From assembly GCA_902557385.1 (NCBI GenBank), contig CACDZF010000006.1, forward strand, positions 1 through 50,785: DNA of 50,785 bases. The letters are read 5' to 3'. The stretch comes from an uncultured Pelagibacteraceae bacterium. GTDB lineage: Bacteria; Pseudomonadota; Alphaproteobacteria; Pelagibacterales; Pelagibacteraceae. A program made the translations under genes and the position numbers. Each line of letters begins with the position of its first letter. Within the stretch, counting starts at the first letter, position 1. This document shows positions 5,175 to 49,902 of the stretch, piece by piece. The notes beneath the pieces were generated by a model, which was not told the origin of the DNA, made no database searches, and was given only the letters and a program-made list of their open reading frames with translations.

Positions 5175-6615
5175 TTAATTCTTCTGTCTCCGTAAAAAAG
5201 CGGGTATTTCAAATTCATCTTCTTCATTTTCTTCGTTTTCCAAAGATGCTATTTCTCTAACTGGACTCTCTTCGTTAGAGTTGAAAAGATCTGGAGTTTC
5301 TTCTTCTGCCTCTATTCCAAAATTTTCTAAACCGTTTGAAGATGGCTCATGAACTTCTTCAGAAACCGGTGCTAGAGTTTCTTCTTCATGATTTTTAATA
5401 TTAGGATTAATACTTGTATCTTCCGACTTCAACATGTGCGCATCAACTAAATCAGATGAAGATGTTTCTTCCTCAGTTAGAACTTCATTTTCAAGTTTTA
5501 ATGCATTTGCTCCACTTGTCATAGTATTTGACATACTGGTCGATAAATTAAAACTATTTGAATTATTAATATTGGAAAAATCAGAATAACCTGGATTTCT
5601 ATTTTGTATTCTATGAACCATATTTATTACAGATTTCGACTCAGGTTGTTGTCCATCTAGCGCAGTGGCAACAATTGAAACTCTCATAATTCCATCAAGT
5701 GCTGGATCTGTAATTGCACCAATAATTAACTCTGCCTCTGGATCAACTTCAGCTCTTACTTTATTAACGGCTTCATCTACCTCAAAAAGTTTTAGATCTT
5801 TTCCACCAGTAATATTAACAAGTAATCCTTTTGCTCCCTTTAAAGTATAATCATCAATTAACTGATTAGTTATTGCCATCTCTGCAGCTTTTGCAGCTCG
5901 ACCTTCTCCTTCAGCTTCTCCTGTTCCCATCATAGCTTTGCCCATTGAACTCATAACATGTTCAACGTCTGCAAAATCTAAGTTAATAAGACCAGGTCTT
6001 ACCATTAGGTCGGTTATACTTTGTACTCCATGAAGCAATACATGGTTTGAAAGTTCAAAAGACTCCTCAAAAGTAGTTTGTTCACTTGCAACTTTAAACA
6101 AATTTTGATTTGGTATAACTATAATTGTATCAACGTGCTTTCTTAGCTCTTCCAAACCTTGTTGAGCTCTTCTCATTCTAGAAGGACCTTCATATAAAAA
6201 ATGGTAAAGTAACAACACCAACAGTTAAAATATTAAGTTCCTTTGCGGCCCTTGCAATTACATGTGCTGATCCAGTTCCTGTGCCACCGCCCATACCTGC
6301 GGTTATAAAAACCATATTTGCACCTTGCAAAATATTAATAATATCATTTAAAGATTCATCAGCAGCGGCTTGGCCAATATCTAATTTTGATCCTGCGCCT
6401 AAACCTTTTGTTAAATTTAAACCTATTTGAACTTTATTTTTTGCTTTACTATGTTTTAAATCTTGAGCATCAGTATTTACTGCTATAAATTCTACTCCTT
6501 GAAGACCATTATCTATCATTCCATTAATTGCATTGCCTCCAGCTCCCCCAACTCCAAGAACTAATATTCTTGGTTTTAATTCTCTTATATCTGGTGTTTT
6601 AAAATTTATTGTCAT
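5175..6615 (-). CDS. ftsZ: Cell division GTPase FtsZ, interrupted by a one-base frameshift
   Basis: FtsZ polymerises with GTP into the division ring. The first 139 residues carry the nucleotide-binding GVGGAGGNA region and the tubulin signature GGGTGTGS (about 109-116). The frame then breaks at a run of six A on the plus strand (6196-6201): as written it reads LPFFI-stop, whereas five bases would give [10 protein letters not shown] and join the second half without loss. That half ends in a long acidic linker and the C-terminal partner-binding peptide EIPAFLRRQ. With the run corrected the product is 479 residues. A strong ribosome-binding site (GGAGAGGGG) precedes ATG 6615. The gene is essential in free-living relatives, so an assembly or sequencing error is more likely than a pseudogene. 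Confidence 0.93.
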
Positions 6616-10048: not shown

Positions 10049-10125
10049 TGGTGGGCCCGCCAGGACTCGAACCTGGGACCAATACATTATGAGTGTACTG
10101 CTCTAACCAACTGAGCTACAGGCCC
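10049..10125 (-). tRNA. tRNA with CAT anticodon (probably Ile2, possibly Met)
   Basis: The minus strand folds into a full cloverleaf starting GGGCCTGTAGCTCAG, with anticodon loop CTCATAA, standard T-loop TTCGAGT and encoded CCA. CAT tRNAs may be initiator Met, elongator Met or Ile2, whose C34 is changed to lysidine by TilS. The acceptor has C4-G69 and C5-G68, pairs used by E. coli TilS, and the 5' half looks like alphaproteobacterial tRNA-Ile, so Ile2 is favoured. It lacks the initiator C1-A72 mismatch. It lies 60 bp downstream of tRNA-Val. Confidence 0.95.
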
Positions 10126-10185: not shown

Positions 10186-10260
10186 TGGTGGGCCGTGTTG
10201 GTTACGCTCCAACTACCCCTGCAATGTCAATGCAGTACTCTACTATTGAGCTAACGGCCC
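10186..10260 (-). tRNA. tRNA-Val(GAC) with a non-canonical T-loop and D-loop
   Basis: The minus strand has a perfectly paired 7-bp acceptor stem (GGGCCGT with ACGGCCC), anticodon arm CTGCA-TTGACAT-TGCAG with anticodon GAC, a 5-bp T-stem (GTTGG with CCAAC), discriminator A and encoded CCA. The T-loop reads AGCGTAA instead of the usual TTCRANY, so the 54-58 pair is A-T rather than T-A and position 55 is G. The D-loop AATAGTA has A where G18 is expected and keeps G19, which can still meet C56. It begins 2 nt after the rpoD stop. Intact stems argue for a working gene. Confidence 0.88.
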
Positions 10261-10262
10261 AA

Positions 10263-12107
10263 TTAACTTTCCAAGAAACTCTTTAGCTGCTTTGATCTAC
10301 TTGGATGTTTTAATTTTCTAAGAGCTTTAGCTTCTATTTGTCTTATTCTTTCTCTAGTGACTGAAAACTGCAATCCAACTTCTTCCAAAGTATGATCGGT
10401 GTTCATTCCTACGCCAAATCTCATTCTTAATACTCTTTCCTCTCTAGGTGTTAAAGTAGATAATATTTTTGTTGTTGCCTCGCTTAAGTTTGCTTTAATT
10501 GCCTGCTCTAAAGGTGCTAGAGCTTTTGTGTCTTCTATAAAATCTCCCAAACTACTATCTTCCTCGTCACCAACTGGTTTTTCTAAAGAAACTGGCTCTT
10601 TAGAAATTTTTAAAACTTTTCGAACTTTTTCTAAGGGCATTCTTAACTTTTTAGCTAATTCTTCTGGTGTAGCTTCTCTACCAAATTCACTTAAAATTAA
10701 TCTTTGAGTTCTAACTATTTTATTTATTGTTTCTATCATATGGACAGGAATTCTAATTGTTCTTGCCTGGTCAGCTATTGATCTTGTTATTGCCTGTCTG
10801 ATCCACCAAGTTGCATAAGTTGAAAACTTATATCCTCGTCTATACTCAAACTTATCCACTGCTTTCATAAGGCCTATATTGCCTTCTTGAATAAGATCTA
10901 AAAATTGTAAACCTCTATTTGTATATTTTTTTGCAATAGAAATTACTAACCTTAAATTAGCTTCAACCATTTCTTTTTTTGCAATTCTAGACTCTTTCTC
11001 TCCTTTTTGGACTCTGCTTACAAGTTTTTTAAAATCAGTTACTGAAATTCCAAGCTTATGACTTATTTCAACTAGCCTGTCTCTAATATTTTTGAATTCG
11101 CTCTTATTTTTTTGAAAAAAATTTTTCCATGTTTGGTTTGTATCAAGAAAAGATTTTAGGTTAGGATTAATTTCATTTCCAACATAAAACTTGATAAACT
11201 CATTTCTTTGGATCTTACTTTCTAAGGCTAGCCTTAATAAATTTCCTTCTAGAGAAATAATTTTTTTGTTTTCGATGTAATGTTTTTGTACCAATTCTTC
11301 AAGGATAGAAGGTGATAATTGAAGTGATTTTATATTTTCAAGTATATCACTAACAATTTTTTGATAATTTTTTTCTTTTGAAGGAGAAAAGTTAATTGAT
11401 TTTAAAACACAATCTAGTTTCTCTTTTTGATATTTTATTAACTTTGCGTAATCTCTTGTTAAAATATTTACAGTTTTTAAAACTTTCGGTTTGATTTCAG
11501 ACTCCATTGCGGCAAGAGTTGGATTAAACTCATCTTCAGTTTCATCTCCGCTTTCATTGTTGTTTTCATCTAATTTCTTTTTATCTTCCTCGTCTGAACC
11601 TTTTTGTTTTGGAGATGAATTATTTGTTTCATCTTCCATATAATTTGTGTCTATATCAATTATTTCTCTAACTAAAATTTCATCATTTTGAAGTTTTGTA
11701 TCCCATTCGTAAAATTGCTGAGCGGTTATTGGACTTTGAGACAATGCGTTTAACATAACATCTTTTCCTGCCTCTATCCTTTTTGCTATTGCGATTTCAC
11801 CTTCCCTCGAAAGTAATTCCACTCCACCCATCTCTCTGAGATACATTCTTATTGGGTCATCACTCTTCTCAATTGTCTTGCCTTCTTCTTTTGAAGAGCT
11901 TTCTTTCTTTCTTAAAACTTTAAAATCAGATTTTTTTTCTACTAAACTTATTTTTTCATCAAGTATATGTAGGAAAGCTTTTTCGAGGTTTTCGCCAGAA
12001 AGGTTTCTTTTCCCTAAAGATTTATTAAGTTCTTCATGAGTAATAAAACCTCTATGGACACCTCTGCCCATTAATCTTGCAAATGATTTTGTTATAATTC
12101 TTTCCAC
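10263..12107 (-). CDS. rpoD: Primary sigma factor RpoD (sigma-70)
   Basis: A 614-residue housekeeping sigma factor. Region 1.2 follows [13 protein letters not shown]; regions 2.1-2.4 include [20 protein letters not shown] and the -10-reading [14 protein letters not shown]; region 3 follows; region 4.2 near the end has the helix-turn-helix [18 protein letters not shown] long acidic non-conserved insert lies between regions 1.2 and 2. It is the last protein gene of the minus-strand yqeY-dnaG-rpoD unit, 70 bp after dnaG, and tRNA-Val begins 2 nt past its stop codon, so RNase P cleavage probably shapes the mRNA 3' end. Confidence 0.98.
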
Positions 12108-14534: not shown

Positions 14535-15732
14535 TTGAAGAAAAAAGCAAAAAAAAATAACTCAAAAAAAATCTCTAGGATTCACACAGGCGTTTTAGTT
14601 CTTGAAAATAGAAAAGTCTTTAAAGGTATTGGTATAGGTTACCTAGGTACAGCAACTGGAGAGGTATGTTTTAATACTTCGTTAACTGGTTACCAAGAAA
14701 TTATTTCTGATCCTTCTTATGCAGAACAGATAATAAATTTTACCTTTCCTCATATAGGAAACGTGGGTACCAACAAGGAAGATCACGAGTCTGATAAAAT
14801 TTGGACAAAAGGAGTTATTTTTAATTCTGATATTACAAATCCGTCAAATTATAGATCTTTAGCAAATCTAGATTGGTGGCTTAAAAAAAATAAAGTTGTT
14901 GGAATAACAGGGTTAGATACTAGAAGTTTAACTAATTTCATTAGAGATAAAGGCGCTCCTAAAGGAACAATTTCTTTATCAAAAAATGGAAAATTTAACA
15001 TTAATAAATTAATAAATTTAACTACAAAATGGAGTGGTTTAAAAAACTTAGATCTAGCAGAAAAAGTAACAACAAAAAAAAATTATATGTGGAAAGGTTT
15101 TAAAACTTGGAAAAAAGAAAGCGGATATATAAGAAACAATACAAAATCACTTAATGTTGTTGCTATAGATTATGGAATAAAAAAAAATATTTTAAGATAT
15201 TTTTCAGATTTTAATTGCAAAGTTAATATTGTCTCGTGTAAAACAAGTGTTGAAAAAATATTAAAACTAAAACCAAATGGTGTTTTTTTATCTAACGGAC
15301 CAGGAGACCCTGCAGCAACAGGAAAATATGCTATTGGAATAATCAAAGAACTAATAAAAAAAAGATTTACCTGTTTTTGGAATATGCCTAGGTCATCAAA
15401 TATTAGGTTTAGCACTTGGTGCAAAAACAAAAAAAATGAAACTTGGCCACAGAGGAGCAAATCATCCTGTAAAAAATTTAAATGAAAATAAAGTTGAAAT
15501 TACAAGCCAGAATCACGGTTTTGAAATTATTAGAGAAAGCTTACCAAAAAATATTCAAATAACTCATACTTCTTTATTTGATAACAGTATTGAGGGAATT
15601 AGATTAAAAAACAAACCTGTATTCTCAGTTCAATATCATCCCGAGTCTAACCCTGGTCCTCAAGACAGTGTTTATTTGTTTCAAGAATTTATTAATAATA
15701 TGAAAAAAAATGCCAAAAAGAAAAGATCTTAA
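14535..15732 (+). CDS. carA: Carbamoyl-phosphate synthase small subunit CarA, interrupted by a one-base frameshift
   Basis: CarA hydrolyses glutamine and channels ammonia to CarB for arginine and pyrimidine synthesis. The N-terminal half contains [24 protein letters not shown] and SNGPGDP. The frame breaks in a run of eight A (15356-15363): with seven, the reading passes directly into [15 protein letters not shown], restoring the nucleophile cysteine, and later the YHPES histidine-glutamate pair. The corrected product is 398 residues, normal for CarA. The first codon is TTG at 14535; E. coli carA also uses a UUG start. The 3' end overlaps carB by 23 nt. As written the enzyme would lack its catalytic domain, so a sequence error is likely. 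Confidence 0.93.
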
Positions 15733-48743: not shown

Positions 48744-48786
48744 AATTTCGAACAACTATTAGGACTCAAATTAATTCAATCTCAGG

Positions 48787-48815
48787 TTGACGGGGACTCA
48801 AAGCTAGAGTCTAAT
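48787..48815 (+). promoter_or_regulatory. Probable ccrM promoter with GANTC sites
   Basis: TTGACG (48787-48792) and TCTAAT (48810-48815) are separated by 17 nt, with transcription expected near 48822, about 7 nt before the ccrM ATG. GACTC at 48795-48799 lies in the spacer and GAGTC at 48807-48811 overlaps the -10. Further GANTC sites are at 48763-48767 and 48734-48738. GANTC is the target of CcrM, so methylation feedback is likely. Confidence 0.7.
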
Positions 48816-48828
48816 TGTTTTTTATAAA

Positions 48829-49902
48829 ATGAATAATTTAAATTTAAAAAACAAGATTATCAATGGGGATAGCCTTAAGGAATTAAAAAAAATTCCTGAT
48901 GAAACTTTTGATCTTGTGTTTGCTGATCCTCCTTACAATTTGCAATTAAAAAATAAATTAATTAGACCTGACAGATCTAAAGTGGATGCAGTTAATGATA
49001 AATGGGATAAATTTGAAAGTTTTAAAACTTATGATGATTTTACAATTAAGTGGCTTACTGAATGTAAAAGAATTTTAAAAAAAAATGGAAGTATTTGGGT
49101 TATAGGTAGCTATCATAATATTTTTAGAGTTGGTGCAAAAATTCAAGATTTGGGTTTCTGGATATTAAATGATGTAATTTGGAAAAAAAATAATCCTATG
49201 CCAAATTTTAGAGGAACAAGGTTTACTAATGCACATGAAACTTTAATCTGGGCATCGAAAAGTGAAAAATCAAAATATACTTTTAATTATCAGTCTCTAA
49301 AATGTTTAAACGATGACCTTCAAATGAGATCGACTTGGAGTTTGCCTATTTGCAGTGGCAATGAAAGATTAAAAGAAAAAGGCAAGAAAGTTCACTCCAC
49401 TCAGAAACCTGAAGCATTACTTCATAGAATACTTTTGGCTTCTACAAATAAAAATGATTTTGTTTTAGATCCATTTTCAGGTTCTGGAACCACTGCTGTA
49501 GTTGCAAAAAAACTTAGTAGAATTTTCTGTGGAATTGAGAAAGATAAAACTTACTTTGAGGCTTCGAATAAAAGAATTAAAAATACAAAACCAATAGAGG
49601 ATAACTATTTAGACTCATTACAAAACAACAGATCTAAACCTAGAATTCCTTTTGGTTCGTTAGTTGAGATGGGTATCATCAAACCAGGAACGGAAATATA
49701 TGACCAAAAAGAAAAAATTAACGCAAAAATTATGATAGATGGAAGTATAAAATACCAACAATCTGAGGGTTCTATTCATAAAATTGCTGCTAAAATCTTG
49801 GGTGCTGAAAGTTGTAATGGCTGGACATATTGGCATTACAAATCCGGAAATTCTCTTAAGCCAATAGATGAATTAAGACAAAGATTAAGACCTAGCAATT
49901 AA
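48829..49902 (+). CDS. ccrM: CcrM-type adenine-N6 DNA methyltransferase (GANTC)
   Basis: A 357-residue beta-class methyltransferase: the catalytic DPPY (33-36) comes before the target region and FSGSGTT (216-222). [14 protein letters not shown] is typical of CcrM, and the C-terminal 80 residues form the RAMA-type DNA-contact domain ([18 protein letters not shown]) that marks CcrM as opposed to restriction-linked relatives. CcrM is solitary, methylates GANTC at the end of replication and couples gene expression to the cell cycle in alphaproteobacteria. No restriction gene lies nearby. Its stop overlaps that of the convergent gene. Confidence 0.95.

Follow-up and report, generated by a model that had tools for sequence, protein, structure and literature searches.

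The tRNA-Val(GAC) gene found in a 50,785-nucleotide stretch of DNA from an uncultured Pelagibacteraceae bacterium (the window; G+C 28.5%) probably encodes a working elongator for GUU and GUC codons, in which the G18-Psi55 contact of the tRNA elbow is substituted by A18-G55, a substitution that may have been enabled or favored by loss of the pseudouridine synthase TruB. In the canonical elbow, as described in the available excerpts of two articles (PMC4810234, PMC7912444), G18 is inserted between residues 57 and 58, where it touches Psi55, and the outer face is made by G19-C56; the binders of the elbow include the ribosome, RNase P and ValRS. The excerpts of the second article describe Psi55 and the G18-Psi55 contact as near-universal, and state that TruB requires a U at position 55 in a GUUYRANYC context (PMC7912444).

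The features of the gene and its immediate surroundings are listed in Table 1. The letters noted in an earlier sequence-only reading, a T-loop AGCGTAA with A54, G55 and T58 and a D-loop with A18, together with the retained G19 and C56, were confirmed. ARAGORN, the Rfam model and folding agree on the intact stems and encoded CCA reported there: all four stems are fully paired, with one G-U in the D stem, and the full cloverleaf is the minimum-energy structure (z = −3.29). With its GAC anticodon, the gene has the makeup of an elongator tRNA, and it shares the cloverleaf, U8, A14, U33, G19, C56, R57, G53-C61 and CCA with canonical bacterial elongators. The expectation that such a gene would escape standard gene finders did not hold, as both finders that were run (ARAGORN and Infernal/Rfam) detect it. 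Compared to the canonical bacterial elbow, G18 and U/Psi55 are replaced by A18 and G55, and the T54-A58 reverse Hoogsteen pair by A54 and T58, while G19-C56 is preserved by its letters. The 15-48 pair (A15/A48) and residue 60 (A instead of a pyrimidine) are also altered, which extends the earlier list. Since the base at position 55 is G, TruB cannot modify it, as had been pointed out.

Table 1. tRNA-Val(GAC), its loop positions and flanking genes in window coordinates
Feature	Position	Strand	Basis or remark
rpoD (sigma-70)	10263..12107	−	same strand as tRNA-Val(GAC); named by eye from translation
tRNA-Val(GAC), 75 nt, encoded CCA	10186..10260	−	ARAGORN; Rfam RF00005, 53.6 bits (gathering score of the tRNA model, 29); fold
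D-loop AATAGTA (A14 A15 T16 A18 G19 T20 A21)	10241..10247	−	sequence
D-loop key positions A15, A18, G19	10246, 10244, 10243	−	invariant in 8 aligned variant Val sequences
Variable loop GGGTA, with A48 (10214) facing A15	10214..10218	−	sequence; invariant in variant Val alignment
T-loop AGCGTAA	10202..10208	−	sequence; 54, 55, 56, 58 and 60 invariant in variant Val alignment
T-loop letters A54, G55, C56, G57, T58, A59, A60	10208, 10207, 10206, 10205, 10204, 10203, 10202	−
tRNA with CAT anticodon (tRNA-Met type), canonical elbow	10049..10125	−	60 bp downstream of tRNA-Val(GAC); ARAGORN, Rfam

A search of 101 genomes with the 75-nt gene gave matches in 49 of the 61 genomes of its own genus (g1; this count includes the window's genome), whereas the remaining 40 genomes gave none. 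The full-length gene is identical in 39 of the 61, which rules out read error or chance. The 12 genomes of the genus with no match are all incomplete (55–86%). One of the 49 matched genomes, G037, has a canonical elbow in its Val gene. In G028, the variant is present as a 3′ fragment only (locus L038, 3001–3032), with no matching 5′ half; this fragment is not called by ARAGORN and is perhaps an integration remnant. In a second set of 18 genomes of the genus, 16 have the variant Val and two the canonical form (G037 again, and G126). Close relatives with a canonical T-loop, which the sequence-only reading had named as an indication of a pseudogene or read error, are therefore represented by G037 and G126 alone, and not by the other genomes of the genus that were read.

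Eight distinct variant Val sequences were aligned; a ninth (G124), with one extra D-loop base, and the G028 fragment were left out of this alignment. Eleven of the 21 stem pairs are altered on both sides, by 20 two-sided changes in all, and every one of the 168 stem cells remains paired. None of 500 shuffles reached these covariation values. Residues A15, A18, G19, A48, A54, G55, C56, T58 and A60 are invariant, and positions 57 and 59, together with D-loop positions 16 and 20, vary. Because individual loop letters, rather than a contiguous stretch of DNA, are kept while the stems change in pairs, the constraint acts on the RNA. Such conservation with compensatory stem changes is expected of a functional elongator tRNA, whereas a pseudogene would show relaxed, uncompensated change.

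The switch at 18/55 was found in four isotypes, which excludes a single odd gene. In the complete genome G012, three of all 32 tRNAs found have A18/G55, namely Val(GAC), Phe(GAA) (T-loop TGCGAAT) and Thr(GGT) (T-loop TGCAAGT), and the other 29 have G18/T55. The tRNA-Phe is the only one found in this genome; therefore, such an elbow must work in translation. Reading of Phe, Thr and Val genes across the genus and the order also turned up three sequences of His(GTG) with A18/G55. A set of 138 distinct tRNA sequences was drawn from every locus but L072; it is not a random sample, since most loci came from searches with variant tRNAs. In this set, all 26 sequences with A18 have G55 and all 112 with G18 have T55, with no mixed form. 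The 112 comprise 104 assigned by an automatic rule and eight Ser or Leu rows assigned by eye (their D-loops contain GG). The association has a Fisher p of ~1e-26 with relatedness ignored, on the rule's own table, in which one misread Leu row was entered as mixed and seven misread Ser rows were omitted. The 26 A18/G55 sequences are 11 Phe, 9 Val, 3 Thr and 3 His, against 33 with G18/T55 within the same four isotypes. A54/T58, whose covariation with A18 the sequence-only reading had proposed to check, is confined to Val, in all nine variant sequences and in no other of the 138, and is thus a separate or additional change. The earlier view of coordinated change rather than decay is borne out by three results: the gene is conserved within the genus, its stems covary while the loop letters stay fixed, and positions 18 and 55 covary over four isotypes. 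Judged from these sequences, the elbow of tRNA-Val(GAC) is very likely a functional, coordinated change. The usual Phe gene is apparently replaced in three genomes (G009, G034 and G042; loci L321, L322 and L323) by an unrelated tRNA-Phe with G18/T55, whose T-loop is TTCGTTT (T58) and whose D-arm is odd.

No match to the TruB N-terminal domain (TruB_N) was found in 41 genomes of the genus, the complete G012 included, with 14 of 14 controls positive. The 49 matches in a 147-genome sample of the order come from 42 genomes of family f2 and all seven genomes of genera g5, g6 and g7; in this sample, g1, g8 and g9 gave no match. There was also none in 11 genomes taken as f2 by subtraction, at most one of which is ≥90% complete. 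The surroundings of rpsO were compared in 30 genomes, which yielded 29 loci, as rpsO was not matched in G145. In all four loci of TruB-positive genomes (G061, G106, G110 and G120), truB adjoins rpsO. In all 25 TruB-less loci (20 of g1, four of g8 and one of g9), infB and pnp are ~600–650 bp apart, a gap that fits rbfA and rpsO and is too short for truB. The names infB, rbfA and pnp were given by eye, and in several g1, g8 and g9 loci the ORF list has an overlapping frame where rbfA or rpsO would stand. The genus and its two sister genera, g8 and g9, lack truB at its place between rbfA and rpsO, and their closest relatives have the gene. A midpoint-rooted Pnp tree, in which G061 was not included, separates the 25 TruB-less rows of g1, g8 and g9 from g5, g6 and g7 with support of 100/99. 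Near-complete genomes of the genus are about 1.0–1.5 Mb in size.

The type of elbow follows TruB incompletely. All four g8 genomes and the one g9 genome read, as well as many of g1, have A18/G55 in tRNA-Phe; two genomes each of g5, g6 and g7 and the f2 genome G061 have G18/T55 in it. In G061, ARAGORN also called 27 of 28 Rfam tRNA matches, and all 27 have G18/T55. Within the TruB-less clade, a canonical Phe is found in G037, G113, G060, G145, G111, G117 and others, and a canonical Val in G037, G126, six of the seven g8 genomes read and the one g9 genome. Conversely, the TruB-positive genome G160 (g7) has a variant Val beside pnt genes, with all 75 nt identical to g1 copies, which suggests horizontal transfer. 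Contamination from g1 is unlikely, given the g5-like flanks on both sides of the gene and a g5-type initiator tRNA on the same contig. The variant is therefore not restricted to cells that lack TruB. The 29 unaffected tRNAs of G012 and the canonical Phe or Val genes in the genus indicate that TruB loss does not force the change; together with G160, the canonical genes of the clade make TruB loss neither sufficient nor strictly necessary for the variant. At least five changes of the Phe state and at least four of the Val state are counted on the Pnp tree, with gains, losses and transfers pooled; for G112, G114 and G116, the Phe state was assigned from alignment scores that equal those of genomes read. 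The tree shows a single truB loss, and the association of this loss with A18/G55 therefore has a phylogenetic n of 1. TrmFO (TIGR00137) was above cut-off in none of 36 genomes of the order, TruB-positive ones included, and in seven of 14 controls. In the order, TIGR00137 gives partial matches within longer frames of mostly about 620–640 residues, which we take to be MnmG. Loss of TrmFO as a cause of the elbow change is thus rejected, since it does not track with the change, and m5U54 may be absent from the whole order, unless TrmA is present.

These distributions suggest the following course of events. The ancestor of the clade most likely lost truB. In a cell that presumably has no pseudouridine at 55, the G18-U55 contact would no longer be privileged, and U55, with its enzyme gone, would lose part of its advantage, so that a purine-purine A18-G55 could take over. 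A18 of the D-loop would then meet G55 of the T-loop where G18 met Psi55, and the outer G19-C56 pair, touched by the ribosome, RNase P and ValRS, would be retained; in tRNA-Val, the 54-58 and 15-48 pairs would have been rebuilt as well. As an acceptable or better substitute that needs no modification, A18-G55 would have come and gone, or been exchanged, on several occasions. With G19, C56 and R57 retained, recognition from outside should stay unchanged. From covariation of the letters, A18-G55 probably replaces G18-Psi55 directly, and TruB loss may well have been the enabling cause. In a wider version, for and against which the case seems evenly balanced, loss of the Psi55 synthase in a large clade of streamlined bacteria freed the elbow code, A18-G55 arose several times as a clamp that needs no modification and is equivalent to G18-Psi55, and the T-loop perhaps turns in the GNRA fashion rather than as a U-turn. 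The last element is speculation prompted by positions 55–58, which read GCRA in variant Phe, Thr and His. A GNRA-type turn resembles a U-turn, and Steinberg and co-workers reportedly carried out selection experiments on T-loop libraries. A clade that lacks TruB, with the contact replaced on both sides in four isotypes, amounts to a natural experiment on the purpose of Psi55: does it stabilize the elbow, and can a matched base pair do its work? Elbows with A18/G55 should not depend on modification.

Among the alternatives, coincidence deserves the most weight. A18/G55 could be another stable arrangement, accessible to bacterial tRNAs at any time, with the loss of TruB unrelated; the variant Val of G160, the single TruB loss and the 29 of 32 G012 tRNAs that are unaffected all fit this. 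Nevertheless, it is unlikely, since four isotypes switched inside the TruB-less clade and the distinct tRNAs of the TruB-positive genomes sampled are G18/T55 in 40 of 41 cases, the lone exception being identical to a g1 gene. Decay can be given hardly any credence. A redundant or degenerate tRNA-Val(GAC) would be covered by another valine tRNA, for which the sequence-only reading advised looking, and Val(TAC) with a canonical elbow is present in G000 and G012; moreover, tRNA-Val(GAC) has the lowest Rfam score of the three tRNAs in the window, and G028 has only the broken 3′ fragment. Against a pseudogene stand the identical copies in 39 of 61 genomes, the compensated stems and fixed loop letters, the sharing of its 18/55 elbow with the one tRNA-Phe found in G012, and the demand for the tRNA, with GTT and GTC making up 395 of the 653 valine codons in 38 ORFs of the window.

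It is also very improbable, if slightly less so than decay, that the loops of the variant Val are kept for a special role outside decoding, either in another pathway or at the border of a mobile island. This would agree with the restriction of A54/T58 to Val, with the likeness of the G028 fragment to an integration remnant, and with variable glycan- and methyltransferase-like genes next to the gene in several species and neighbors that differ by genus (by eye). It accords poorly with the constraint on the RNA that is evident from kept loop letters and pairwise stem changes, and with the 18/55 switch being common to Phe, Thr and His. An elongator with an A18-G55 elbow, enabled or favored by TruB loss, is the preferred explanation.

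The rebuilt tRNA-Val elbow resembles, in part, that of eukaryotic initiator tRNA and tRNA-Ala(AGC), in which, according to the available text of PMC7566577, A54oA58 and R15oA48 are present and A54, A48 facing a purine at 15, and a purine at 60 co-occur, as in Val; positions 48 and 54 are discussed there as moving together. Variant Val shares the purine 15 with A48 and the purine 60, but differs from the A54oA58 type of that text in having T58 opposite A54 in all nine sequences, in the additional change at 18/55 and in being bacterial (PMC7566577), and no descent is claimed. Small genomes that have naturally lost the Psi55 synthase are likewise known from TruB-less Mollicutes (hemoplasmas, M. 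genitalium and M. pneumoniae), for which the available text mentions no 18/55 changes (PMC4014445). In the open-licence PMC literature, no report was found of A18-G55 in tRNA or of truB together with pseudouridine in Pelagibacter, and nothing related to the T-loop of SAR11 tRNAs. The Val-specific pattern gave one stretch in genome_contigs (Pontibacter, taken as chance) and none in viral_contigs; records near the window's genome were possibly left out of both, which makes these absences weak. Phage records gave weak matches to query bases 5–32 only, outside tRNA-Val(GAC). All four tRNA-His genes checked have A73, and three of the four have no G ahead of position 1; the ancestral G-1 with C73 is reported for HIMB59, and not for other SAR11 strains, in the available text of PMC3937112. 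Together with the genome sizes and the G+C content, this makes Pelagibacterales the probable order.

The TAA stop of rpoD ends 2 nt ahead of the 5′ end of tRNA-Val(GAC) on the same strand, and co-transcription is therefore likely. The neighbors of the Val(GAC) gene vary by genus, being rpoD or pnt genes (named by eye), and the gene often borders variable glycosyltransferase- or methyltransferase-like genes (by eye; loci L229, L239, L241, L243, L246 and others), with a tRNA-Met on their far side in several loci. Elsewhere in the window, FtsZ seemingly occupies two overlapping frames (5175–6221 and 6190–6615, minus strand), and the carbamoyl phosphate synthase small subunit likewise looks divided between two (14535–15485 and 15436–15732, plus strand); both were seen by eye and suggest a frameshift or sequence error. 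A partial, weak tRNA-like match of 30.7 bits lies at G000:C1:139771-139830 (minus strand), and the window also contains an Rfam match to the bablM sRNA at 48763–48832 (plus strand, 59.4 bits).
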